Positions 9,115-58,841 of a stretch of DNA of 64,000 nucleotides are shown here, piece by piece. The stretch is from Agelas oroides (lineage: Eukaryota > Porifera > Demospongiae > Agelasida > Agelasidae), in the NCBI GenBank assembly GCA_949130485.1, contig OX422183.1, positions 16,698,420 to 16,762,419 of the forward strand, written 5' to 3'. The position numbers and the translations under genes are program-made. The notes under the pieces were generated by a model. It had not been told where the DNA came from. It did not search any database and saw only the letters and a list, made by a program, of their open reading frames with translations. Every line of letters starts with the position of its first letter. The first letter of the stretch is position 1.

Positions 9115-9235
9115 TACACAAGTCAACAAGTAAAAGAATTAGTAATTTGCTGCATGAGTGAATGTGGGCATCTACAAATTATTGTGATGTGTGGGTGGAT
9201 CAAAGGTTCTGTCAATTCACTTACGTTCACTGTAC
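9115..9235. repeat. Dispersed repeat flanking the 78-bp minisatellite
   Basis: A diverged copy of 2,160-2,345. Its last part, AAAGGTTCTGTCAATTCACTTACG, runs directly into the first minisatellite unit, which suggests that the tandem array grew out of this element's end. Confidence 0.6.
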
Positions 9236-10929
9236 AAGCTATGCAGTACAATAAAGAATGAACAATACTGAGCACACAGTACAGTTCTGTCCATTCACTT
9301 ACGTTCACTGTACAAGCTATGCAGTACGATAAAGAATGAACAATACTGAGCACACAGTACAGTTCTGTCCATTCACTTACGTTCACTGTACAAGCTATGC
9401 AGTACAATAAAGAATGAACAATACTGAGCACACAGTACAGTTCTGACCATTCACTTACGTTCACTGTACAAGCTATGCAGTACGATAAAGAATGAACAAT
9501 ACTGAGCACACAGTACAGTTCTGTCCATTCACTTACGTTCACTGTACAAGCTATGCAGTACGATAAAGAATGAACAATACTGAGCACACAGTACAGTTCT
9601 GTCCATTCACTTACGTTCACTGTACAAGCTATGCAGTACGATAAAGAATGAACAATACTGAGCACACAGTACAGTTCTGACAATTCACTTACGTTTACTG
9701 TACAAGCTATGCAGTACGATAAAGAATGAACAATACTGAGCACACAGTACAGTTCTGTCCATTCACTTACGTTTACTGTACAAGCTATGCAGTACGATAA
9801 AGAATGAACAATACTGAGCACACAGTACAGTTCTGTCCATTCACTTACGTTTACTGTACAAGCTATGCAGTACGATAAAGAATGAACAATACTGAGCACA
9901 CAGTACAGTTCTGACCATTCACTTACGTTTACTGTACAAGCTATGCAGTACGATAAAGAATGAACAATACTGAGCACACAGTACAGTTCTGACCATTCAC
10001 TTACGTTCACTGTACAAGCTATGCAGTACGATAAAGAATGAACAATACTGAGCACACAGTACAGTTCTGTCCATTCACTTACGTTCACTGTACAAGCTAT
10101 GCAGTACAATAAAGAATGAACAATACTGAGCACACAGTACAGTTCTGTCCATTCACTTACGTTCACTGTACAAGCTATGCAGTACGATAAAGAATGAACA
10201 ATACTGAGCACACAGTACAGTTCTGTCCATTCACTTACGTTCACTGTACAAGCTATGCAGTACGATAAAGAATGAACAATACTGAGCACACAGTACAGTT
10301 CTGTCCATTCACTTACGTTCACTGTACAAGCTATGCAGTACGATAAAGAATGAACAATACTGAGCACACAGTACAGTTCTGACCATTCACTTACGTTTAC
10401 TGTACAAGCTATGCAGTACGATAAAGAATGAACAATACTGAGCACACAGTACAGTTCTGTCCATTCACTTACGTTTACTGTACAAGCTATGCAGTACGAT
10501 AAAGAATGAACAATACTGAGCACACAGTACAGTTCTGTCCATTCACTTACGTTTACTGTACAAGCTATGCAGTACGATAAAGAATGAACAATACTGAGCA
10601 CACAGTACAGTTCTGACCATTCACTTACGTTTACTGTACAAGCTATGCAGTACGATAAAGAATGAACAATACTGAGCACACAGTACAGTTCTGACCATTC
10701 ACTTACGTTTACTGTACAAGCTATGCAGTACGATAAAGAATGAACAATACTGAGCACACAGTACAGTTCTGTCCATTCACTTACGTTCACTGTACAAGCT
10801 ATGCAGTACGATAAAGAATGAACAATACTGAGCACACAGTACAGTTCTGTCCATTCACTTACGTTCACTGTACAAGCAGTACAATAAAGAATGAACAATA
10901 CTGAGCACACAGTACAGTTCAACATGACA
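9205..10929. repeat. 78-bp minisatellite, about 22 units, with 702-bp higher-order repeat
   Basis: Unit starts (AGTTCTG) fall at 9283, 9361, 9439 and so on every 78 bp to 10,843. The last unit lacks 5 bases. Variant sites (CTGTCC/CTGACC, ACGTTC/ACGTTT, ACGAT/ACAAT) repeat with a nine-unit rhythm: the units from 9361 and those from 10,063 largely match in order. Because 78 is divisible by 3, the minus strand stays open for about 600 codons as a 26-residue periodic frame. I regard that as a by-product of the period, since codon choice shows no constraint and no start, splice or poly(A) context supports a gene. Confidence 0.97.
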
Positions 10930-11067
10930 GGCAACTACCCTCGAGTAGAGTCTCAAGATTGACAAGTTAGTGTGAGGCAAATCATGGACATGGCAATAAG
11001 TGAAAGAACCGGCAAATAGACGTTGCATCATACAACAAAAATATAACAGTACAAACTTGCTAAACAC

Positions 11068-34111: not shown

Positions 34112-37100
34112 ATGATTTTCTTCTCATGGTGGTTTGCAGATTCTGGCATTGTTGTTGATCTTCATCAGTTGCCAATGTAGTACAGGTACGTATGATGATG
34201 ACACACTGATCCTCAATCACAATCCCATGAAACTAGACACAAAACCGGAAAAAGTTCTCTGGATACCAACTTATGACTTTTGCCAACTTAGCAGTTTGGT
34301 CATCACCGGGTGTAAGTGATGTCAACAACACACACCCCACCAAGAGAAGTTGTAAAACTCCATCCTTTGCACTGAGAGCTCAAATGCAGATCACTGATGC
34401 GGCAGCCACTCACTACACTCAAAGTACTCACTATCACACATTGTAGTTGATAACATCACAAAGGGATGTCTCTACACCTTAATAAGATGGCTTACACTTT
34501 CAATACTGTAGAGAGTAATTATTGTCTGCTCTGAGACAAAAGTCCGTGGCTCACTACAACTGGTCTCTTGACTTCAAGTACCACAGCCCAATAGCAAAAT
34601 ATAGGTTGCATGGTTTGTGAGTAAGAAATTGCACTCGAGCATGTCACTGATTCGGTTAGCTATTACTGTGTAAGTTTGAATGTGTTTCTGTGCTGAGTGC
34701 ATTCCTTCAGCCAACTTGTAACAATCTGCTTCACTTTTTTTTGGCATGTGATTGACTGTTGACAGCATATAGTTGAAGAGATACGCATCTCTTGGGGAAA
34801 TCATAACAAGCATTGAGTTTTGTAAACATTTGATATGTTTATCAAGCAGTACAGTTCAAATAATAGTTTTGTTGCTTGGAGCATTGTACTTACCCAGGAT
34901 TACAATTGCCAACTATTGGATTATATACCAGAGGCCATATATTCTTATTCAGGATTGGATGATATTTGTATAGTAGTTGCCATTCATATACTCCAATGCG
35001 TTTGCTGTGACATAACTAAATGACTAGTTATGAGTAGTATGAACAGAGAAGGTTGGTTATGACGTCAGGCTACTTGACACATGCCAATCTCCATAGTATA
35101 GCATTAAATCTTTCAGTGGCTTCTCAGTTGGCTTCTGCATGAATAAAGAGAAAGGTATAGCATTATGTCTGTTTGCAGGTGAATCTGCACGTTTGCTGTC
35201 AGAATCTGTTAGTGATGTGCATTGATCTGGTGAGAGGTTCTCTTATAACATGGTGAAGCTTAATCAGGAAAACACTGACAGCATAACAAACAGTCTGTAA
35301 TATCTGACGTGTGACACAATTAGTCAATTTTTAGTCTGGCTTGATAGCATCTCTTTACTCCTTTCTATTCACAACAATGACTTTACCATTGCCATGGCAA
35401 TAATCATTCAAGGTACAATGTACATACTACAATTTCACTATATAATAATGCTGACTGTGATGATGCCTTGCAGGTAGATCTGTCATGACCCTGACCTCTA
35501 CTCTGGATGGCAGACAGGCTGCTTGTCCTGGGGAGGTGGTGACCTACACCTGCACAGTACTTCGTACAGCCGTCATCAGTGTGTATGCTCTGCCAGACAT
35601 TGATGGTGTTCATTATTTTCCCAGGAGTCCAATTGGGCAGCAGTTTATTAGAGACTTCCAGCTTGCTCTCACTAACAAGGTTCCTGATCCCAACAATGCA
35701 GCACTGGCAGACCTCACAACAACCCTCTCAGTCACTGCTACAGCTAGACGTAATGGGACAGAGGTGCAGTGTCGTGGTGATGAACCCAGTGAAAGAATGA
35801 GCCAAGTTCTCTACATTGCAAGTGAGCGATAGCTATGTAGCATGCAGCTTTTATGTCTCTATGTATGAATGTATGTATGTATGTTGTAGGTATGTATATA
35901 TTTTAACTTTGTACGAACAATCAATGAACCACATCTTTCTGAATAAAAGAGGTGGGCCTAGATGTTATGCAAAGTCACCAACTGCACGGGACATATTTGT
36001 ATGTATGTATATAGGTATGTACATAGATGTATACATCAAGTTATTTTACCAAGACGAAACAGCATCTGCCCAAAGAGCAAATGCTGTTCTGTCTGGGGAA
36101 AGTAACCATTTTTGTTGGATGTTACCCCAAGCAATTTAATGCCATATATACCCATTATCACCTCCACCCATTCAAAGTTCAAAAGATATGGTTGCTAAGC
36201 AACAAGTATATATGTATGTATGTGTGTATGTATGCCATTTTATTTTTTTGTAATCTCCAGATGAAAGAGCACAAGCTGCATGGACGAATGCTCCTCCTCT
36301 GGGGAGTATATGCAACTGATTTGTTGTTGTGTTGAAATCCTTTGCCTTAGCCCCCTCCCCCCTCCCATTATCAGATCCATGAAGATTCTAACACTTGTTC
36401 CGAGTTCTGGTCACTTAGCAACAAAAAAGCAAACATGTTTTCTGCGTGTAGTGCAAACAGTTTAAACAGATAACTCTCACTGCTTTTCTACACATGATTC
36501 ATCTGACAGTTTCTGACAGTTATATTCTTTTTCTCCGAAATTTCTTTTAACCCCCCCAGCTATGCCACCATCACCTCCTCAGAACCCAGGCTACCATGTC
36601 CAGCACTATGGTCCTCACAATGTCACTGTTACTGTACAGTGGGGGTACCCAGAGTTTGATGGAGGAGTCCCAGTGGACAACTATACCATCAGTGGTGCCA
36701 ACATTATGACAACCACCTCACGAATCAATGAAACCACACTTTCTTTGCCATACAATGCAAGACAAACTATAGAGGTTGCTGCCACTAACTGCATTAGAAC
36801 CAGCAGAACTGCCACATTTACCTACTTTAAAGGTAGGGCTGGTGGGATAATTATGATTACATTTACACTTGTTAACTACAAAGCATTAAACACTGGTGTA
36901 GGCAAGATAAATTTTCTCACACTCAACCTCAGTGTTGTCACTGCCAAGATAGTCTACAATCCTCTGTTTCCGTTTCAGCTACTGTATAGTGCACTACACT
37001 CTTCATGAATGGCTTTCCGCAGACTGACACTTTCTAATAAGGCCTGTCAAAGGAGTGTGCGCAATGCAGCTAGTGTGTCAGTATACCTCACATATTTCAG

Positions 37101-38661
37101 GAAAGACCCTGATGTACGTTTGTATTTGGATGACTATATAGGTTAGGAAGCCAAATTCCCTAACAGCAGAAATTTCAAGGTAGACGGGGCCAGTGTCAGT
37201 TAGACTACAGAACAAATCTGTATGATCATCATGTGTGAATGTATGTATATTTAGGGTGGGAAGGAATGGGTCCAGAAATGAGTTTTTCAACTGCAAATGT
37301 TCAGTGTCTACCGTAATGTCATTGTTTCACCTCAGCTGGCTGCAGGGAGCCCACTCCTCCCAGCAGAGGGTCCATTGATAACTTCCAAAATGCAGCAGAA
37401 GGGGCCAGCATAACCTACAGCTGCAGTCCAGGGTTGGTTCCAAGGACACAGATGAGTGCAGTGTGTACCAACATGACCTGGAGACCTGACCCTGCCACTC
37501 TACAGTGTAGGGAACCACTTCCAGGGGAACTAGGTTAGGTGCATAATTATGATCTAATGCAACTGTGTGTTTCAAGAGGCCATGATAGAGCAAGGAATTT
37601 CCTTTCAAAGTTTCATGGTGACTGCCTTGCTAAACTTAGGGGTGAATTAAGCTGGAAGGATAATACCCAATGATCAGATGCATTTGTTTGCAAGCAAATG
37701 TGTTTGATCATTGGGATTATCGTAGACTGAACTATGTTTATGTGACAATTCTACATGCAGCTGACTGTGGAGCCCCACCCCCTCCAGTCAGTGGATCTCT
37801 GCTGCAGCCTTACACTAACACAACAGAAGGCTCAGTGGTGGTGTTCCAGTGTGACCCAGGGTTTGTCCCAGAGGGAGAGATGACAGCAGTGTGTGGGAGT
37901 GATGGTCAGTGGAGCCCCAACCCAGGAGATGTCACCTGCAGCCCCAGGCCCACACAGACATTCACACAGACAATTACACCGACATCAACACAGGCACCTA
38001 CACAGGCACCTACACGGGGGGCATCAACGCCCACTAAGACTTCTACTCCTACTGGACATGGTGAGAATGAACTATTAGAAATATGTACGTAGGTGTTATA
38101 GCATGTTTATGGTGTTATCTGGCTAAAGTGTGTAAGAGTTGAAGCAAACTTAGAGCACTTACACAGACATTCACACAGACAAACATTCACACAGACATTC
38201 GTACAGACATTCGTACAGACTGACATCCATACAGATAAACCCACACAGACAGACATCCACACAGACAGATATTCACACGGACAAGTATTCACACAGATAT
38301 CCACACAGATATCCACACAGATAGACATCCATGCAGACAGACATCAACACCAATATCTGGGCCTCATGCTTCACCTGTTCTCTCTTATCCAGATGACTGT
38401 GTGCAAGGCTCAGATTCAACCATCACCATTATTACAGCAGTTGTCTCCTGTGCTGTGTCATTCATCCTTGGAGCACTGGTTGGTGCTCTAGTACACTACT
38501 GTACTGTGAAGAAGAAATCCAAATGCCACAAGATCTACTCCATGGCAATATCTCACAAGCAGAAGAAGCAACAGTCAGCACCAGTGTATGAAGATGTTAT
38601 TGTCCCGTCTCAGAACATTCAACTGAAGGAAAATGTTGCATATGGCCCTGTTCTGCAATAG
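32988..38661 (+). CDS. Ig-FN3-Sushi-Sushi transmembrane receptor, 485 aa
   Basis: Coding exons are 32988-33011, 34140-34185, 35474-35821, 36560-36832, 37336-37533, 37761-38060 and 38393-38661, all with GT-AG borders. The first intron is phase 0 and the rest are phase 1. The product starts MSLIKAVKILALLLIFISCQC (signal peptide). It continues with an Ig-like domain (about 25-139, CPGEVVTYTC ... VQCRGDE), FN3 (141-230), two Sushi/CCP domains (about 233-285 and 299-357, each with four cysteines and a late Trp), a Thr/Pro stalk (360-395), one membrane span (about 407-431) and a basic tail of about 50 residues. Tail tyrosines Y445, Y462 (VYEDV) and Y480 (VAYGPV) could recruit SH2 proteins; the last fits an inhibitory ITIM pattern. 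One-exon-per-domain phase-1 design is typical of shuffled animal receptors. Ligand unknown. Confidence 0.85.
33313..33371. mobile_element. 59-bp minimal TAGCCTCGT element with 8-bp target duplication
   Basis: The element lies in receptor intron 1 and consists almost only of its ends (TAGCCTCGTACCCAGGCTC and inverse). ATCATGTT flanks both sides (33305-33312 and 33372-33379). A further fragment (GGCCTCATTCCCAGGCAGGG) lies at 33,470-33,498. Confidence 0.9.
34070..34110. repeat. (AC)n microsatellite in receptor intron 1
   Basis: About 18 AC units ending 30 bp before the exon-2 acceptor, so length changes could affect the polypyrimidine/branch region. Confidence 0.95.
36040..36215 (-). repeat. 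Inverted fragment of the long dispersed block in receptor intron 3
   Basis: GGTTGCTAAGCAAC, ACCTCCACCCATT and CTGTCTGGGGAA correspond, inverted, to the 5,120-5,290, 14,310-14,440 and 20,280-20,440 segments. Confidence 0.65.
38140..38350. repeat. CACACAGACATT tandem repeat in receptor intron 6
   Basis: Roughly 12-bp and 16-bp units of CACACAGACATT(C) type fill most of the intron after exon 6. A 22-bp stretch is identical to the part of exon 6 that codes for the Thr/Gln-rich stalk (about 37,954-37,976), so the intron repeat and the coding repeat share an origin. Confidence 0.85.
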
Positions 38662-40686: not shown

Positions 40687-40692
40687 TTTATT
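40687..40692 (-). terminator. Poly(A) signal overlapping the megasynthase stop codon
   Basis: On the minus strand the last codon and stop read CAATAAA, so AATAAA starts inside the final Gln codon. Downstream is strongly T-rich (ACACAAAG then long T runs). A canonical animal poly(A) signal here implies a very short 3' UTR unless a later signal is used. Confidence 0.6.
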
Positions 40693-43600
40693 GATCATCA
40701 GGGTATAAAAGTGACAGCAAGGTGCTGACAACTTTTGCAAAAACTTTGCTTCCAGACTTTTGAATGAAAAAGTGGTCACCTTGAAACAGGGTCACATGTG
40801 CAGTTTTGTTGGTACATTTGGACCACTCTTGAAGATCATTTGGTGTAACAACATGGTCTGCCACACCTCCCAGTATTTCTATTGGGCAGTCGACCTTCAT
40901 GTCAGGTGGGCACTTGTACTGTTCATAGAGTCTACACAAGTAGCGGAGCTGTTCAATTGTGGGTTTTAGTTCTGGTGCCATCATGAGCTTCTTTGGTTCA
41001 ATGTCAAACCCTTTCTCTCTGAGCTTCATCAGAAAGACATGATCATCAGCAATATTAGAGAGGCATTGGGTTCCTACAGCAAGCTGACTTCCTTCAGATA
41101 CTTTCAGTGGGGAATACATGCTGCATACTACAAGCAAGAAAGGCAGGGGCATCTTCTGGTTGCACAAGTACTGGTAAATATCAATAGCTAGTAAAGAGCC
41201 AAAGCTGTGCCCCAAGATCACAAATGGGACATTTTGCTCCTGGACTATTGTAGACACACCACTTGCAAGTGTGGAAACTAGATCTTCCATGGTGCATGGC
41301 ACCACAGGGTAGAAAGTACTCCATACCGTCATTCCAGGAAAAGACCAGTTCTTGAAAAGATGTGTTGGCATTCCTATGTACGGTAAGCAGAACAGATGAA
41401 CATCAGTTGATTGACTTTGCTGGCTTCCATGTGTCAAGTGCCACATGTTATGTGAAGTGATCACTGCTTGGCTATAGGTTGGCTTCACTGGTGTCTTCTC
41501 TACCGATGTCAAACCTGATACCACCAAAGCAAGGTCAGAGACTGTGGGATGCTCCATAATATCTAGAGGTGAGAGGTAAACTTTGAAAGCTTTATTCAAA
41601 TTGGACACTAGCTGTGCAATCTGAAGAGAATCTCCTCCCACTTCATAGAAGTTTTCTGTGGAGAGATGTTTTTCTTCTGAAATGCTCAAGATTTGTTTCC
41701 ACTGTGTTAGTATGTAGGAGTGCACCTCAGCATCAATGTGGTCATTCTGCTGGACATCAGCACTGGATAAGTGGATTTGTATTTTGGTAGTGTCAAGGCT
41801 GTTGCCAAATGTGTCTTTGATGCCTTCCATTTGAAGTGCAGTGACCAAGCCTTCTGGGATAAATTGTTCATCAATGGTACTTTTATCAATTGTTATCAGT
41901 AATTCATCTTGTGGTAACCCAAATTTCTTAGCTGTTTCATGACTGATAGGTATAGGACCATCGCCCAAAAGGCCCACATATATTGGGCCTTCTTGTTGAA
42001 GGAGTGGATCTAGAAGTTGTAGTGCAGTGTCTGGTTCGAGGGTGTTCATGCCCAGCACTTCTCCAACATCACTAATGGTGTGCCCCTTGCTTAGGCCTGT
42101 GTTCTTCCAAACTGGCCAGCTAATGCAAAGTGTTCTTATGTTGTGATCACCTTTAGTAGCACTGCAGTGATGGTGGAACATTTCAAGGAACTTGTTAGCT
42201 GCTGAATATGTGGTTAGACCTTTTGCTGGTAGGACACTGTAAACCGAAGAGAACAGAACCAGTACTGCATTCTTTGAATTCTGATACAAGAATTCATACA
42301 GCTTGAGAGCTCCTTTCACTTTGGCTATCATAGCAGTCTTCAAATCTTCAACTGTCAAATCTTTGATGCTTTTCTCTTCATATGCAGTTGCAAGGTGGAA
42401 CGCACCACAGATCTGTTGACCCTTGCTCACTCTGAGTATGTTTTCAGTAGTCTCCTCCCTACTGATGTCCCCTTCAATGTAAGTGTATTGTACACCATGT
42501 CCATCGAGGAATGTGAGGCAGTCCTGGACGTTTGTGCTTGTCTTAGAGTGACGACCAATTAGGACCAACTTTGCATTGAAATATTTGTGCAAATAGACAG
42601 AAAGGAAACGTCCCACACCTCCAGCACCACCTGACAAAATGTACACTCCTCCCTCAGGTAAGACTTTCTGCTCTTTTGAAGCAATCTCAAACAAATCAAT
42701 TTCTTTCAATCGAGGTACATGACGTTGCAGATTTCTATAAGCTACTTGGGTTTCCTTGTGAGTGGAAAGTGCTTCCTGGATAATAGCACAAGATAAAGTG
42801 TTGAGGTCTGTATCGCTGGTACATTGACATTCTGGCAAATCAACCTCTAGCAAGCAACACTGGTCTGCCAATTCTTTTGTAGCTACACTAATTAATGAGG
42901 ACATTAAACTCCTTGTGGGCTGCAGGAAATCAGATGTTGTGACACAAGCAGACTGCGATGTGACATTAAGAAGCTTGATCTGCAAGTGTTTTGGCAAAAC
43001 TTCTAAACTCTGCAGAAGGTACAACAGCTGTTGATTATGCTCATCTGACCAAGGAGAGGAGAGGTTCATTTCACTTCTGTCTCTGTGATTATCGTATGGT
43101 ACAATGTTCACAATTATGTCGATGAAGCCACACAAACTTAACAGCTTATACCATGCCTCAATGTAAGACAGTTTGCTGGCCTTTTGAGTTATAAGTGTTC
43201 CAGAAGTTGGCTCTGAAAGAATCAACTGATTTCTGTGGTGGGAAATGGACACTGGTATGCATTGTTTGTTCTTTAGTTTTTCTTCAATAAGGCTGAAGAG
43301 CTCACTACCCTCCAGGTGAAGGATTACAAACACTCTCTTGCTTTGGCTTTCTGCAGTCTGCAGGGTGAATGGCTCCCATGTAAGAGTATGGACTGGTATG
43401 TGCAAATTTGATGGCGGTTGCAACCAAGATGACACAGTGCTGCTAATGTAGTGCCCTTCAACGTAATTCTTCTTCATGGCAACTCTCTGAATCTTTCCAC
43501 TTGTCGTTTTCTGAAATTGGGTTTGTGTAAGAACCACATACTGGGATGGCACAATTCCAAAGTACTTGTTGATCGTCAGGTGAATTTTCTTAATGATTCT

Positions 43601-46600
43601 GTGGAGTTCATGTTTGGGTAATGAGTCTGGATCACTAGGACAGAAGATAACCACCAATTCTTCAGTACCCTTTTCCACATTCTCCACACCAAATGCTGCA
43701 GAATATGTTGGGGTCACACCTTCCACTTGATTTACCTTTTCTTCAATCTCATGACAAAAGTACTTGACACCTCTAAGTACTATTTGTTCCTTAATTCGAC
43801 CTGTAATAAAGAGATTTCCATTCACAATAAAGGCATGGTCTCCTGAACGCATCCATCCATCTCTGAATAGTTCATTTGAGGCCTTTTCATTGAAGAGATA
43901 TCCAGGAGTGACGACATCACCACAGATCTCTAACTCTCCTATTTCTCCATCAGGAAGTTCACATCCCATCTCATCTGTGACACGAATAGCAACTCCTTGC
44001 ATTGGTGGACCAAGGTTCACAAATTCATAGTCGCCATACTGGTGGGTCCATGACTTACTCTTTAGCCCTACAGTGTTGTGGTATGTGAAACATGTTGCTG
44101 TCTCAGCCATACCAAAGGATGGCTGAACTGTGGATTCTTTGAGGCCCATTGGAACAGTTGCTTGTAGAAAACTTCGAATTGTGCCAGGGGTGACCATTTC
44201 ACCTGCATTAATCAAACTCTTAAGTGTAGACAACTCAATAGTCTGCTTCTCTTCTTCACTAGCCTCAGTTACTGATTTTGCCACCAAAGCATAGCCAAAG
44301 TTTGGTGCCCAGGTGTGAGTGATACTGTATTCTGTTATAAGTCTCAACCAGTTCAGGGGGTTTGATAGTACAATTGATACATCAACCATATGTTGACTGC
44401 ATCCAAGGAAGGTGTCCTTAAGGTGGAATGTCAGTATTGGTACCACGTGATCCATAGGAATCCAGCTCAGAGTCCGATCAGTGTGAGAGTAGTTGTTGGC
44501 ACGTGTTGATGAGATAATGTGGCATATAACCCTGTTGTTGAGTTCTTGAATGCATTTTGGTGCCCCTGTGCTGCCAGATGATAACTGAAGGAACAACAAA
44601 TCATTAGGAGATGAGTTGTCAAGCATGACATCACACACTCCTCGAATTTTGTTAGCTTCCACAGCAGATAGTGAAACCACTTTTGCATTTTGAAATTCTG
44701 GATAGAATTGCTGCAAATTCTTGATGTCCTCGGGAAAATCATCAGTAAATATGGTGGCTTGATTGAGTGTCTTCCAAACATGGTGAAGCTTTTCAGTCTT
44801 TCCAGATATTTCCTTGTAAGTCAAAGCTTTGGCAACTATTGTGGGAACAATTCCATGTAGGACACATCCCCACCATAAAGGGATAAGCTTTCTGGGCTTG
44901 CTGATGAGAAGAATGACAAAACTTCCCTTTGTTAGGCCAAATAACTCAAAAGCTGATTTGTACTGAAGAGCTGATTGGTATAGCTCAGCATATGACATGA
45001 AATGTGTACACTCCTCCTCTATGAATGTGATGCCCTTTGTAGGATAATTTGATGCTGTTCTTTGTAATGCTGCTACCATTGTTGTAGATGGTTCTGTCTT
45101 GTGTGCAATCGTTGACTGTTTTGGTGTGATACCTTCCATTACTTGCAACAGTGAGGGTATAGGCTTCTTGTCATTTGATTTCTCCTCCTCCAGTTTGCTT
45201 GGTTGTGTCCTTTTGTTTACTGAAGGTAAAGCTGCTACGGATTTGCTATTGCGCTTTGACTTGTGTCTTTTCCTCACAGAAACCTTGGCACAAGGGATGT
45301 ACTTTGTTACTGCAGACAAGACTTGATTCTGGAGTATTGGATCTAGTACAAGGATCTTCTGTAGTTCATCTTCGCTAATCTGTCCTTGCTCATTCCTTGG
45401 TAAGCTAGACACTTGGGTAATAACCACATTGGGTGGTAATGTTCCTGCAAGCCTCATTATTTGGTCATCATTAATCCTTCTGTTTCTGTTTGCCTGAACA
45501 TATATGTAGACTTTGGGATTGTTGCCCTCTTTGACAACAGCTATGTGGCAGTCTCGAACAGAAACATCTCTAAGGATTTCATCTTCAATCCTTCCAATAT
45601 TGAGCAACTTTCTGTTATAAAACAGCCTCCTGAAAGGTGCACTACATATGCTGGAGCCTGGTCCATGTAGTGCAGGGGGGATGGGGTTAGGCATTTGACC
45701 ATCAGATTCACTTTTTGAGATAAAGGTAATGGACTCTTCAAGGATTTGTAGAAATCCAAGCATGTAGCTTTGCTGAATATACCCTTGATCATAATGCAGA
45801 AAGCCTTTGATTTCATTGCTTGTAGCTTTGATGTCCATAAATATCAGCTGGTCCTCTGGAATATTTGAGTAGGGGATCCACAGAGGTTCTCCTCTATCTG
45901 GGAGGACTTCAGATGAGAGAGTGGTAAAACTGAACCCCACTAGTGGATACTGTGCCTTTACTGGTACATGCTGGTACTGTAATGTCTCTGCTAATTCCTT
46001 TCTTATCATTTGCAGAAATGACTTTGGTGTGCACTTTTCCGGCAGTTTTAAGTGGAGTACAACCCTGTTTGCTGTAGGACCAATGAGTCTTGAGGTCGTT
46101 TTGTCATTTCTGTTTGAAAATGGTGATGTAATATAGACATGATTAGACCCTGTCAAGGTATGGATACTGAGGTAGAAGGCAGCTAACACAACCTCCACAG
46201 GAGATGCATTGTATTGAGAGCAGGCCTGTTTGACAGAAAGAAACTGAATGTTGACTGGAAAGCTAGCCCTACTGCCTAAAGGTATTCCATCTTGATATAT
46301 CTCAAAATTAGGCAACACTGAAGCCTTTGCAAGTTTGTCCTCCCAGTAGCAAAGGTCTGTACTGTGTTTTGGTGTGCCTTGTTTTGCTTTTTGCTGCAAC
46401 ACATACAGTTGATATGCATCTTTCTTCTCTTGAGCAGCAATACTGGAGTGAGAAATTGCTTCTTGCATGACTAGCCAGGCTGTGATGTCATCTGCAATGA
46501 TGTGGTGAAGCACAAAGACAACCACTGTCATCTTTTCTATCTCATACAACTGACATCTCATCAGAGGTCCACGCTCATAGTCAAACATTTCTGAGATGTA

Positions 46601-49600
46601 TTCATTGATTGATGGGTACATGTCTTCAATAGTGGTTCCATTCTTCAGGGTGGTGGTGGTAACATGCACTGTACAAAGCAAAGGTGATCTGATAGTCTCT
46701 GTTGTTCCTTCTGTATCATGAAATAGAGAATGAAGAATCTGGTGGTTCTGGACCACTTTGTTCAATGTTGTCTCAAAGGTGTCTTTATCCAATTCTTCGT
46801 GCAGCAAAAGTGCAGCAAATACATTATTTACAGTTGAGTATTTTCCAATCCTCTCCAGCAGAGCAAATTCTTCTTGTTGGAAGGAAAGAGCTGACAGATT
46901 TTCCATGTTCAGAGTACACTCCTCTTTGGTATAGCATTGTGATGGTGTAACCGCTTTAACAAATTCTTCAAAGACTGGATGACAGTAGACAGTAGTGATA
47001 CTGACATTTACATCCAGTATATCAGATAGTCTTGATACCATTCTTTGAGCTACCAAAGAGTGACCTCCATTTTCAAAAAAGTCAAACCGCATTGTGATTA
47101 CTTCTTCTGAAACATGCAACTCACTGGCCCAAACTTGTGCAATGCACTTCTCATTTGCTGTTTCTGGTTTTCTGTGGCTAGATGAAAGCAAAATTTGAAA
47201 TTTTGATGATCCTTCCAGTGTCTGCAACTGTTTTTGGTGTACCTTGTCATTGGTGTTGAGTGGGATCTGATCAATAGCAAAGAATTTAGTAGGAACCATA
47301 TATGCAGGTAAGTGCTGCTTCATGTGACTCTGTAAGTCACTTGCTTTCACATCCCGGTCCAATACAACATAGGCTACCAAGTGCTTTTCATCTGCTTTAT
47401 CATTCTTTGCGATCACCGATGCATGCTGTATAGCGAGATATTGTAGGAGGGTGTTCTCAACTTCAGTAAGGTCCACTCGGATTCCACTTACTTTGACTTG
47501 CTGGTCACATCGTCCAAGAAAGTGTACAACAGGTGCATCATTCTTTAGAGGATCTGGTAGGACCCTCACTATGTCTCCACTGTTGTATAACTTTCCTTCT
47601 TCTGGGAAAACAGCTAGTATGTGAGGGGGTGGGATGATGAATGCCTTGTCGTTCAGTGTTTCATTTCTGTAACCTTTGGCAATTCCATCACCTCCAATAT
47701 AAAGTTTACCACTCATGCCAGTTGGTACAGGCATTAGATTGTCATCAAGGATATAGATTATTGTGTTGGAGACAGGGATACCAATTGGTACTTGAGCCAC
47801 TGAAGCTCTTGAGAAATTGTCTGGTACAATGTAGTAGGTTGTGAATGTTGTACCCTCTGTTGGCCCATACATGTTGTAGAAAGAGCATGAAGGAAGCTTT
47901 GTTTGTGCCAACTGGACTTTGTCAGTAGAGACAACATCCCCACCAGTAAGAATGTGATGTACCTTACAAAACATGTTAATGTGAAGGTCCATCATTACAT
48001 TAAACAATCCAGAAGTGAGCCACACCATAGTAACATCATGACTGTACACTTGTTTAGCAAGTTCAGCTGGTGACAATCTTTCTTGTGTTGAAATTACAAG
48101 TGTTCCACCATTCAGAAGAACACTCCATAACTCAAAGGTGCTGGCATCAAAATTTAATGGAGAATGTAGCAAAGACACATCTGTACCCCCAAATTCAATA
48201 TAGTTGCTGCCACGGACAATACGAACAACAGCCATGTGTGGAACATCCACAGCTTTAGGTTTGCCCGTTGTCCCTGATGTGACCATTGTGTATGCAACTT
48301 CTTGTGAGGAAAGGGAAACAACTGTTTCCTTTTCTGGTGCTGGTTCAGATAAAATCTCTTTGTCTATGACTTGCACTGCAACAGTAGACCCTAGTTCAAG
48401 GGTTGGTATCATGGCTTCACATTTTCTGCTGCAAAAGATATATTTAATACTGCACTCTGAAATGCAAAGTTTGATTCGCTGTGATGTAGACTGTGTGTCT
48501 ATAGGAATATAGGAACAACCGCTCTTCAGAATCCCTAGGATTGAAACAACTGCGATTGCACTCCTCTCCATTAGTAGTCCAACACTCTCTCTGGGTTTAA
48601 CATCCTTTAGGAGCTTCAAGGCTATGTTGTCAGAAACCACATTGAGCTCATGGTATGTCAGGATCATTCCTTCATTGACCTCACTAACTGCCACTGATTG
48701 AGGGTACATTTTGGCACATTCTCTAAATATCTCATGAATGCACATTTCCTTTGGATAATTGCTATAAGCCGTCTCTAAGTTGAGAGCCTTGATTTCCTGT
48801 GGTACTTCATCACCACACAGCATTGGAATGGAAGTGGTACAACAGGTTGGGTCATGAGGGACTGACTTACAAAGGGAAACAAAGCACTTTAAGAAACTAG
48901 CCATGACCTTTCCGTGCAATATCTCTGAATTGTATTGCAGAGAGCACAATAAACTGTTGTCAGAGCTGTGCCTAACAGTTAGAATAATGTCATATGGTAC
49001 AAGACCCAGATCAATTTGTGTTTGCTTGATTTGAATGTCACCTGCCAAGATGACTTCTGGTACCATTCCAAATACAAAAAGGGTATTGAAAAGAGGAGTG
49101 CGTGCATTCTTGTGCCACTCTGGATCAACAGCCCCCACAACATCCTGAAATGGACAGTTGTTCTGAAATGCCATATTCAGATTTTCACTTACCTTTGCAA
49201 ATAATTGAGAGAAACTCTGAGGTGTTCTGAAGTCTGTTCGTACAACAACAGGATTACCAAAATAACCAATGGTATCAAAGTTTTTGTTTCCTTCACTTCT
49301 GTTGTAAGTTGGATAGCCAACAGATATATCTGTTTGGCCGCTGTACTTATGGAGTAGGAGCTGAAAGATAGAAAGCAGTAGAGCTTCAATCTCTTGGTAT
49401 GCACTTGTTAACTTTGTCAGTTCTTCTGTTACTTGTGCTGGGACAGAAGTGGTTACTGTCTCAGCCTGGAAGGTCAACTTCTTCAAGGGATTGTGTTGCC
49501 ATGGAAGATTTACAACATTGGCAATTCCCTTAAGTTTTTGGGTCCAGAAATACAATTGTTCTTGCTTTGGAGCTGGGACAAATCCAAGGAATGGATTGAT

Positions 49601-50115
49601 GGGTGCTGCTAGAGTAGGAGTCTTGTTTCCAAGAATTGCTTCATAGCATGCACCAACCTCCTTTGCAAATATAGTGAAGCTTGGATCGCCATCAGAGATG
49701 ATGTGATGCATGACCATGACCAGAAGCCATTTTCGTGCTTGAATTTGGAACAGCTGCAAACGAAACAGGGGAGGTTCTTCAATGTTGAAAGGAAGCTGGG
49801 CCATTTCTCTTACTTTCTTTTCCAAACTTTCCTCCGTTGCTGTACACATGTCATACACTGGCACTTGGATATTAACATGCGGCACAACCTCCATCACGGC
49901 ATTTCTAGATGTCAATACAACACGTGAACGCAAAGCTACGTGGCGTGAACATACTATCAGCACACTCTGGTGAAGAATAGGAATATTCAGTTCACCTTCA
50001 ATTTCAAAGCCGCAGTGTTCATTAAAGGCTCCAGTGTTTGGATACCTCTGAGCTAGAATCATGAATCTTTCTTCTGATGGTGTTAGAGGTCTTGTGTGGG
50101 GTTCACACGGAAGAT
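40688..50115 (-). CDS. Hybrid NRPS / acyl ligase-ketoreductase megasynthase, about 3,140 aa
   Basis: This is one uninterrupted 9,428-nt exon. Numbering residues from a non-ATG codon at 50,146, the order is: condensation C1 (20-430, HHIISDG at 147), adenylation A1 (470-985), carrier T1 (Ser1030), condensation C2 (1085-1478, HHIIADD at 1214), an A-subdomain-like segment (1515-1600), a second adenylating ligase (1665-2235), ketoreductase (2250-2700), carrier T2 (Ser2840) and thioesterase (2915-3150). There is no KS, AT, MT or reductase domain. The enzyme would build, on two phosphopantetheine arms, a chain joining an N-terminal donor, an amino acid and a (hydroxy) acid, then release it. The frame has an in-frame stop at 50,159 and no ATG before residue 29, which lies within the first C motif. 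With the acceptor at 50,116 this points to a separate 5' exon. Codon use and base composition resemble the surroundings, arguing for a resident gene even if the ancestor was bacterial. Confidence 0.93.
40697..41404 (-). other. Thioesterase domain of the megasynthase
   Basis: Residues about 2915-3150 open with LFCLPYIG, as in NRPS/PKS thioesterases. The nucleophile motif is GHSFG (Ser2981), the acid is probably Asp3097 in GGVADHV, and the base is His3125 in FQGDHFF. The triad is complete, so hydrolytic or cyclising release is plausible. Confidence 0.9.
41513..41734 (-). other. Carrier domain T2
   Basis: Residues about 2805-2878; FYEVGGDSLQIAQLV gives the phosphopantetheine serine at 2840. Confidence 0.93.
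42047..43399 (-). other. Ketoreductase (KR) with structural half
   Basis: Residues about 2250-2490 look like the catalytically silent half (starting HTLTWEPF). Residues 2498-2700 are the catalytic Rossmann half with GGAGGVG (2506-2512), Lys2609, Ser2633/2634, Tyr2647 and Asn2651. The tetrad is intact, so NADPH-dependent reduction of a carrier-bound ketone is expected. There is no ketosynthase to create that ketone. Confidence 0.9.
43442..45154 (-). other. Second adenylating domain (acyl / keto-acid ligase type)
   Basis: Residues about 1665-2235. P-loop-like LSSGSTGAPK (1855-1864), GMAET (2012-2016), SGD (2101-2103) and the catalytic lysine 2218 in TSGKIQR are all present. At the place where amino-acid-activating domains have FDxS it reads IPMDHVVPILTFHL, so the aspartate that holds an alpha-amino group is not evident. 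The MDHV...FHL and WAPNFGYALV phrases recall the loading ligases of bacterial hybrid synthases such as the bacillaene type (from memory). A carboxylic or keto acid substrate is more likely than an amino acid. Confidence 0.85.
45347..45604 (-). other. A-subdomain-like segment (possible split pseudo-Asub)
   Basis: Residues about 1515-1600 follow the pattern of an adenylation C-terminal subdomain (DEILRDVSVRDCHIAVVKEG ... SLPRNEQGQISEDEL), but the catalytic lysine position is glutamine and no A core precedes it. A basic, low-complexity linker (1620-1660) follows. Confidence 0.7.
45713..46894 (-). other. Condensation domain C2
   Basis: Residues about 1085-1478. The active-site motif HHIIADD (1214-1220) keeps both histidines and the first aspartate, but the usual final glycine is aspartate. 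It joins T1 to T2 cargo. Whether it makes amide or ester bonds cannot be read from sequence alone. Confidence 0.85.
46943..47164 (-). other. Carrier domain T1
   Basis: Residues about 995-1068; FFENGGHSLVAQRMV gives the phosphopantetheine serine at 1030. Confidence 0.92.
47192..48739 (-). other. Adenylation domain A1, valine-like pocket code
   Basis: Residues about 470-985 with TSGTTGKPK (623-631), NFDASTFELW, YGPTEG, YNSGD, GRCDQQVKVSGIRV and Lys968 in NTNDKV. Aligning by eye to the GrsA Phe domain gives specificity residues D667, A668, F671, W709, L733, G735, M759, T767, F768, K968. As I remember it, the bacterial valine code is DAFWIGGTFK; eight of ten agree. Confidence 0.88.
48857..50089 (-). 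other. Condensation domain C1 (N-terminal)
   Basis: Residues about 20-430; opens RPLTPSEERFMI and carries HHIISDG at 147-153 with the expected spacing. A C domain at the very start must take its donor from outside: a free acyl-CoA, a trans-acting carrier, or a partner synthase. Confidence 0.9.
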
Positions 50116-50131
50116 CTAGAGAAGGATAAGA
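50116..50131 (-). other. Splice acceptor of the megasynthase main exon
   Basis: The minus strand reads TTATCCTTCTCTAG followed by ATCTTCCG, a textbook polypyrimidine-AG. The exon begins in phase 1 (first two bases complete a split codon). A TTAAC branch-like sequence lies about 45 bp upstream. Confidence 0.7.
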
Positions 50132-50624
50132 TGAATACTTTATCAAGATTTTAAGATGTTAAGTGTCTAGGTGGCCAAATCTTGAGCTAAGGTTTTGCCG
50201 TTTGTCACCTAACTATTTTTGGGGTATCAAAGACTGATCAGTCTAGCTACTGCAAGACCTGCAATCAAGTGTCAAATTTGATGGACACATGCACGTTCAA
50301 AGTTGTCACTAGCTTTAGCTGACTGGAATGCACATACTGGTGTTATGTACAGACCACGACCTATAAGTTATGAATACCAATAGCATAGCCAAGGTTATAT
50401 TTTTAACAAATCAAAGGTAATGGAGTAGGTAATTAAAATATATGTGTGATGATGACTGAGAGGGGCTTCAAAATGTATTGGTAGCATGTTAATGGTCTAT
50501 ATATTTAAGCATTAGCCCGTCCTCTTGAACAAATCCCAAGATCTTTCTCAGGTAGCAACAAATATCCTGTTTGTTAATTGAAATTCCTATCTTTGAGCTT
50601 TTTCCAAAACATTATACAAGTTAC

Positions 50625-50640
50625 TGTGGAAAGCAGCCAT
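50625..50640 (-). other. Candidate 5' coding exon of the megasynthase
   Basis: The minus strand gives ATGGCTGCTTTCCACA followed by GTAACT. It has an in-frame TAA just upstream and the phase needed to join the acceptor at 50,116 across a 509-bp intron, giving MAAFHNLPCEPHTRPLTPSE. At only 16 nt the match could be accidental. Confidence 0.35.
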
Positions 50641-57400: not shown

Positions 57401-58236
57401 TGGGCCGTCCCTATTTTCCGGAACGGAGCGGACCGGAACGGACCGAAACGCAACCATAAAACGGACCAAGAGATCCGACGCATGCGCAAGACATTTCACC
57501 GCTACCTCAAAGTAAGTTTAGTTATGTAGCGAAGATTTGAACTTGTCCAGTGGCAGCTGGCATTATATACTGTGCATGGTGAGACGTTTAAAAGGATATG
57601 CACGTATAATTATACCGACTTAGCTAGTAAGTATATGGCATCAGTCAACAAAAGCTATATATATAGCTAGTTTCTGAATTTGCTGGGTTTTTGTTTTCGC
57701 ACATGATGATACTGCCTAGAAGTAATGCACATACAAATACGATGCTGGGTTGTTCATCTGCACTCTAGTTTATCACTGTACATGCCTTTGAGGCATGTTC
57801 TGTTTGCATCTTTTTGTAATTTGCATGCAAACATTGCTACACAATACTGTGTACTTTACTTTTGGCATGTGACAGCACCAAACTTTGCTTAGAATACCTA
57901 CCAAAATTTATCTGTTTGTTGAGCCTGTGCATTTGTCAAAAGTCTATACATCTGCCTGCATGCATGATAAAGCAAGAGACTTGCTACCCACGACAAGGAA
58001 GTGTGCAAATGTATACCTTGCAACACCATCCCACAAAGCTTGTCTAATAGTGTTCACGGTTGTGGTGGAGCTGAAGAAAGTGCGTTAGGCATTTCCAAGT
58101 TACTCTATGCACCTTATACCTTACTTCAGTACAACTATGATGGTTATATCTCCATATCCAGAAACTGAAAATTGTACTGTTGTGGAGTATACATATAAGT
58201 CTGTCCTAAGCATCAACACATGCACAGCTACAACTG

Positions 58237-58687
58237 TAGCCTCGTCCCCGGCGCGCGCGAAAAACGGAGAAGCGCCTGGTACACACTGTTTGCGCATGCG
58301 TTTAATCTCCCCAAGATGTGGGGACTCCGGACTATTTTCTGATTCTTCCGTGTCATGTGACGTCAGAGTTCGGACTCGATATAGTAAACTTGTCAGGATA
58401 ATATAATGGCGTGTAATGAAAGTTCGGATTTTCAGCAAGCGATTTCTCAAGCCCTTCAGCGACTTGCGATCCCAAGTATGGTTCTCTAAACTTTCAACTC
58501 TCCGCTTGCACTTCGCACACATGAGATTCGGTAAGCCGTCGTCATCGTTCAACGTTATATCCAACACAGCGCTTATCCTTGATGCTAGTCTTTCCTGGCT
58601 AGCCTTTTTACCAAACAATGCTACTCTATGGTGGCCGTAGGATCCGCAAAGGCGGCACAACGATGCCATTTTCGCTAAATGGGCCAT
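58237..58687 (-). CDS. ZAD-like zinc-finger ORF inside the TIR element
   Basis: The ATG at 58,687 starts MAHLAKMASLCRLCGSYGHH. Cysteines 11/14 (CRLC) and 57/60 (CAKC) lie 43 residues apart with a hydrophobic, basic middle (ERLASRISAVLDI, GLPNLMC). That is the layout of the zinc-finger-associated domain (ZAD), a dimerisation module best known from insect C2H2 transcription factors. After residue 75 (HTWDRKSLKG) the frame loses domain character and runs past the element border at 58,237, so the real coding part is probably the first exon of a longer parental gene. It lies between the element's ends on the minus strand. A transposon-encoded DNA-binding protein or a captured host exon are both possible. 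Confidence 0.6.
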
Positions 58688-58841
58688 GCAGGATCTTTAC
58701 TACTTACATTTCGTCAGAGCACACGCCCCTATAGCGCCTAAACAGTGTGAACGTCATAAACGTGAGCAACGCCATTTTTAATTAACCGGAAGCGCATCAG
58801 TGTGTACCAGGCGCTCTTCCTCTGCGCCGGGTACCAGGCTA
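58237..58841. mobile_element. TAGCCTCGT-family element carrying a zinc-finger ORF, 9-bp target duplication
   Basis: Left end TAGCCTCGTCCCCGGCGCG, right end inverted TAGCCTGGTACCCGGCGCA. Both have the subterminal GGCGC...GCGCC fold and the following TACACAC(T)GTTTGCGCATGCG / GCGCATCAGTGTGTA arms. CTACAACTG is duplicated exactly at 58228-58236 and 58842-58850. Confidence 0.95.

Follow-up and report, generated by a model that had tools for sequence, protein, structure and literature searches.

A nuclear gene of the sponge Agelas oroides predicted to encode a two-module NRPS of the bacterial depsipeptide type

Bacterial depsipeptide synthetases that select keto acids use a module in which an adenylation (A) domain and a ketoreductase (KR) are combined with a pseudo-Asub, whose split form was reportedly described by Alonzo et al. 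in 2020. StsA (PDB 6ulw, titled 'Adenylation, ketoreductase, and pseudo Asub') carries such a module, and its residues I306 and M415 are named in the accessible text of PMC11253843 as those for keto-acid choice. NRPSs are also scattered across animals (PMC10531068; Suring et al., 2023), where 199 clusters were accepted from 1059 animal genomes, and the premise of the original prediction, that such genes are very scarce in animals, is outdated. Neither sponges nor Porifera were found in the main text of that article. The accessible part of a second paper reports antiSMASH clusters in sponge genomes, with one NRPS and five NRPS-like clusters in Geodia barretti, and leaves contamination versus transfer undecided for the sponge NRPS clusters (PMC10542158). 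Beyond those antiSMASH counts, no sponge-encoded depsipeptide-type NRPS was found in the literature searched, preprints and most subscription papers lying outside the search. We consider it probable that the locus described here is a single-copy nuclear sponge gene for a two-module NRPS of the bacterial depsipeptide type, working by the mechanism proposed below and derived from an ancient bacterial-type gain.

Gene structure and genomic setting

The window, meaning the whole 64,000-nucleotide stretch of DNA analysed, corresponds to C1:16698420-16762419 in an A. oroides genome of 259,295,671 bases and 141 contigs; it has a GC content of about 43% and no tRNA or Rfam elements were found within its 64 kb. 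An open frame of 3156 codons runs along the minus strand (40688-50158, stop TAA at 40690-40688), with the coding exon most likely at 40688-50115. The nine domains first seen in one unbroken frame were confirmed by Pfam matches and motifs, with AMP-binding (3.6e-100) and Condensation (4e-92) each present in two stretches, PP-binding (4.9e-22) in two, and KR (8e-32), AMP-binding_C (1.6e-13) and Thioesterase (4.1e-11) in one each. Judged on the translated exon, these scores are far beyond chance. The domain order is C-A-T-C-A-KR-T-TE, two modules in one chain. A piece covering A2 and KR had six matches in its own genome and the runner-up to the self-match scored 92 bits, which points to a single-copy synthetase gene in A. 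oroides.

The original description of a single 9.4-kb exon holds for the open frame but not for the whole gene. The earliest in-frame ATG is residue 33, within the first condensation domain, the residues N-terminal to it are common to the relative P0002 and partly to P0003 and P0005, and an acceptor-like site, cttatccttctctag|at, lies at 50116/50115, so that a short 5' exon upstream of 50115 is probable. A candidate intron (50116-50624, minus strand) has GT at 50624-50623, a polypyrimidine tract, AG at 50117-50116 and a fitting phase, and would be preceded by a candidate first exon (50625-50640, minus strand; ATGGCTGCTTTCCACA) encoding MAAFH plus one base. This start at ATG 50640, with GT 50624 in the right phase, is our own reading of the sequence and is unproven.

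The gene lies 16.7 Mb into contig 1 and its neighbours are of animal type. Receptor-like animal exons occupy 35464-38661 on the plus strand, including a Sushi match at 37664-38092, and a zf-AD domain lies at 58124-58696; C, A and T domains are thus found together on a contig bearing animal genes. Silicatein is a marker of siliceous demosponges, and silicatein exons were found on C4 of the same genome (QGQCGASYAFSAMGALEG; QGQCGASYAFS, with Ser for the catalytic Cys), with matching downstream exons also on C4. Because the genome encodes silicateins, its sequence identifies the host as a siliceous sponge. Silicatein and silicatein-like exons form clusters at C4:287500-304500 and C11:396000-436000, with Cys at the active site in some and Ser in others and with repeated near-copies on C11. 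Elsewhere in the window, a 603-aa frame at 9123-10934 (minus strand) is a tandem repeat with a unit like CTVNVSEWTELYCVLSIVHSLSYCIA and is probably satellite DNA, not a gene.

CpG loss is the long-term outcome of cytosine methylation. The observed/expected CpG ratio of the exon was 0.18, identical to that of the adjacent Sushi region (0.18), compared to 0.44 to 1.36 (median 0.92) in 77 bacterial loci with module 2 relatives, these being the loci longer than 4 kb among the 80 kept from the profile scan described below. The 37 loci with a GC content below 45% had a median of 0.74 and a minimum of 0.44. The frame contains 75 CpG against 229.3 +/- 9.0 across 500 synonymous-codon shuffles. Two observations count against residence: the TpG+CpA value of the exon (1.47) does not exceed those of the bacterial loci (up to 1.62), and the CpG ratio of neighbouring stretches varies, with 1.08 (zf-AD), 0.60 (upstream) and 0.29 (downstream). 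Exon CpG loss, if it comes from gene-body methylation, would fit germline transcription. CpG depletion of varying degree is described for sponge genomes in the accessible text of PMC7385117.

The exon could alternatively be symbiont sequence, brought in by contamination or a chimeric join, given that the same domain order occurs in bacteria and that microbial sequence is known in sponge assemblies (PMC10542158, in the text accessible). This is barely conceivable. The exon lies within a contig of at least 16.76 Mb, its CpG loss equals that of the adjacent animal gene and is outside the range of the 77 bacterial loci, its relatives, among them one on a 6.48-Mb contig, lie elsewhere than on this contig and form a single clade apart from the other tree rows, and an acceptor-like splice site stands at its end. 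Neither bacterial base composition nor bacterial neighbours were found for the exon when window genes and CpG were considered. Near-identity to a bacterium, named at the outset as the result that would overturn an animal origin, was not found either, with identity outside the family reaching at most 43% over about half of the A2-KR query among the best 120 of 324 matches. Contig position and CpG loss make bacterial contamination or a chimeric join very unlikely, and residence in the animal genome, as originally proposed, is upheld by them together with the silicatein-coding genome.

Domain organization and the second module

Domain boundaries were chosen by us from family-built profiles that include the window protein itself, and all features below lie on the minus strand. 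The first condensation domain, C1 (residues 22-450; 48809-50095), carries HHIISDG and has a Pfam match of 4.4e-60. It is followed by the adenylation domain A1 (residues 465-985; 47204-48766), one of two domains with an A3 loop, whose pocket we read from motif anchors as DAFWLGMTFK, presumably similar to valine codes. The carrier domain T1 (residues 1000-1072; 46943-47161) has its serine in GGHSL.

The second condensation domain, C2 (residues 1083-1490; 45689-46912), is divergent. Its motif reads HHIIADD (G to D) in 5/5 family members, and its Pfam match (1.6e-32) spans profile positions 5-331 of 456 only. In a C-domain tree that took in 69 of 596 C domains and in which long branches meet, its branch was 4.94 changes per column. 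The predicted model of C2 had a mean pLDDT of 71.4 and its top structure matches were C domain-containing structures. Because of the change from G to D in the motif and the branch of 4.94, this very divergent domain could be altered or inactive.

The remaining domains are an Asub-like stretch (residues 1505-1640; 45239-45646), the A2 domain of keto-acid type (residues 1690-2240; 43439-45091), a ketoreductase with structural and catalytic halves identified by Pfam, fold search and motifs (residues 2255-2690; 42089-43396), a further stretch without a Pfam family of its own (residues 2691-2810; 41729-42088), the carrier T2 with its serine in GGDSL (residues 2811-2885; 41504-41728) and a thioesterase with GHSFG (TE; residues 2915-3150; 40709-41416). 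The domain list of the original prediction was kept, with two additions: the Asub-like stretch is placed at the N-half position of a pseudo-Asub, and the piece at 2691-2810 is recognised between KR and T2. What had been called an Asub-like ligase-KR does contain those domains, and as a module it corresponds to the pseudo-Asub/A/KR arrangement of bacterial keto-acid-selecting depsipeptide synthetases.

Module 2 is collinear with StsA, with 1188 query residues aligned. An AlphaFold2 model of KR, the following stretch and T2 (mean pLDDT 80.4) was compared to the PDB by Foldseek and the four 6ulw chains ranked first (8.3e-28 to 7.4e-26), with PKS ketoreductases closely behind (1.5e-25 vs 8.3e-28). 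The KR lies between A2 and T2 and has both a cofactor loop (SGGAGGVG) and the catalytic Tyr and Asn (YSAAN). In A2 the amino-binding Asp is replaced by an aliphatic residue, V1905, opposite I306 of StsA, and Gly-Met takes the place of Gly-Pro at the site of StsA 414/415 (FGMAE at 2015-2019, GM at 2016-2017, M2017 opposite M415); both changes are shared by 5/5 family members. The two putative halves of the split pseudo-Asub that flank A-KR were assessed separately. For the N half, a profile of 18 sequences of the pre-A2 stretch matched the true Asub of LgrA (1.6e-28), and the position of the catalytic Lys of true Asub is Q or F. StsA was absent among the best 60 of the 141 matches of this profile, and was not found when the pre-A2 stretch was the lone query, for which phmmer gave one irrelevant match. 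The C half was assigned from the collinear alignment together with the Foldseek result. In sequence and fold, module 2 thus matches a bacterial depsipeptide-type keto-acid module, with its substrate predicted.

A resident and working enzyme might nevertheless not be an ester maker. A2 could take an aryl or phenylpropanoid acid in the manner of McyG, or C2 could form an amide or merely pass the chain on, and no depsipeptide would result. Among solved structures matching module 2, McyG (4r0m) ranks second (2.9e-104), the A2 pocket, which we read as VVLWIASTCK, is unlike that of StsA, and C2 is strongly divergent. We consider this unlikely, as the KR and the flanking pseudo-Asub-like stretches suit a keto-acid module and StsA comes first among the fold matches.

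Relatives and origin

Of 3551 matches from the first protein search, in which 7985 candidates were scored, the best 120 were listed. Near-full-length relatives (54-90% identity) of the window protein (P0001) lie on three other public contigs. P0001 itself is recorded on a contig of 1.85 Mb, so a second and more fragmented assembly may exist. P0002 has a 90% identity and is found on a contig of 6.48 Mb, P0004 is partial (69%, 12-kb contig), and P0003 and P0005 have a 54% identity each to the window protein and 84% to each other (15- and 30-kb contigs). The other 115 of the 120 listed matches aligned to 32-47% of the query at 24-32% identity, and those named by organism were bacterial. No relatives were found among the viral contigs searched. 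The ten A1 pocket letters are identical in 5/5 family members. Exceptions in other motifs were HHIVSDG in P0004, one changed A2 pocket letter in P0002, a KR loop ending in GGIA in P0003 and P0005, and GYSFG, with the Ser kept, in the TE of the same two proteins; P0004 is cut before the KR Tyr.

The A2-KR query also matched P0236 and P0237, which are about 90% identical with shorter frames and may be broken or split copies. Such shorter frames elsewhere would suit a functionless, decaying relic. That the synthetase gene is itself such a relic is very unlikely, since its 3156 codons are open and most catalytic motifs, as well as the A1 pocket, are kept at a 54% identity to P0003 and P0005.

P0127, from a bacterial MAG ('Agarilytica sp.'), and P0128 are each a single protein of about 3250 aa with the same C-A-T-C-A-KR-T-TE order. 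These differ from the sponge protein in an added N-terminal TubC_N docking domain and in a second C domain that scored as ordinary; P0127 shares 40% identity with the sponge protein across 574 A2 columns, and P0128 shares 28% across 2359 columns. Because both have the whole order, the architecture is, as far as these sequences go, not unique to animals. The order had been thought to be without described precedent in sponges or other basal animals; its second module is of a known bacterial depsipeptide type and its full order recurs in these two proteins.

A profile scan of genome contigs for module 2 relatives kept 80 of 92 loci, from many phyla. From 241 rows, after removal of P0001 and of P0237, which is short, 162 were non-redundant, and the A2 tree was built from 110 of these. 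Six animal rows formed one clade (SH-aLRT 100, branch 1.41) that joins two long bacterial rows with a support of 91, a placement that carries a long-branch warning on a poorly supported backbone. The dinoflagellate-labelled P0344 ('symbB' name) and P0346 (Effrenium) have A2-like domains with 37-38% identity, and P0344 falls outside the sponge clade in this tree. A recent transfer from a searched bacterium is ruled out by a best segment of at most 41% identity in the 80 loci and by the single clade of the six animal rows. The bacterial ancestry suggested originally is plausible, although the A2 tree does not pick out a donor, and these comparisons indicate that the gene was likely gained long ago from bacteria.

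Predicted product and comparison with known systems

In the mechanism that we propose, A1 would load a valine-like amino acid onto T1 and A2 an alpha-keto acid onto T2, where KR would reduce the keto acid to the alpha-hydroxy acid. C2 would couple the T1 aminoacyl group to the T2 hydroxyl, most likely as an ester, and TE would release a dimer or oligomer. C1 may acylate the amino acid from some donor, or may be spare. The ancestor would have been a bacterial-type synthetase acquired long ago. A more speculative extension, which we hold to be rather doubtful, is that the sponge itself makes a depsipeptide under animal gene control. The chain could be iterative, with TE closing a ring of several amino-acid/hydroxy-acid dimers of the valinomycin kind, or C1 could acyl-cap the dimer, and the product would then be a lipid-like compound serving in signalling or defence. 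The iterative one-chain reading assumes that C1 has no upstream partner.

Other megasynthases were found in the same genome. A hybrid PKS-NRPS at C12:2551375-2569159 (CpG observed/expected 0.17) is made up of a 935-aa frame (KS, T and the start of C) and a 5023-aa frame (C, A, methyltransferase, T, more C and A-T units, KS, methyltransferase, T, AT), which overlap within a C domain; under strict motif patterns the long frame has one C and one KS motif, and A3 and carrier motifs were not found. An animal FAS-like type I enzyme is encoded at C21:6943358-6949123 by one 1922-aa frame (KS-AT-FAS_pseudo-KR-KR-ACP) that adjoins an adenosine-deaminase (editase) gene. At C18:2077316-2083521, a frame with AMP-binding and carrier domains (599 aa) is followed by an odd combination of KS, two carriers and a Nup98-type autopeptidase domain (1210 aa). 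A one-module C-A-T-TE NRPS (C11:9154872-9158882, 1337-aa frame, CpG observed/expected 0.32) lies beside a TMTC-type gene. The accessible text of PMC10764717 reports that no sponge-encoded ketosynthase enzymes were found beyond the mitochondrial kind. The FAS-like gene conflicts with that report, which found no such sponge genes in the text consulted, and the further megasynthases, ketosynthase ones included, matter against its negative result.

Microbes usually receive the credit for the natural products of sponges. With a complete depsipeptide-type module encoded on a chromosome, one sponge lineage would have its own route to such compounds, some microbe-credited sponge molecules could be animal-made, and the question of host or symbiont becomes testable gene by gene.

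Compared to described systems, the mechanism is known, its place on an animal chromosome is new and its form has diverged. The nematode PKS-1/NRPS-1 hybrid, which we take to be defined by ketosynthase domains, differs from the synthetase gene, in which Pfam detected no ketosynthase domain. Ebony and ACSF4-U26 are likewise animal proteins with NRPS-like adenylation, but use no condensation domains according to the accessible text of PMC10531068, whereas the sponge gene has two. The animal NRPSs in that text share with it the presence of C domains in an animal genome and differ in having no described keto-acid module. StsA and the cereulide- and valinomycin-type modules likewise lack the amino-binding Asp in the A core, which KR and then T follow as in the sponge gene. 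StsA differs in sequence, with 19-21% identity in the fold alignment, and in comparison to it the sponge module stands downstream of C-A-T-C, is closed by a TE and is part of one chain encoded in an animal host.
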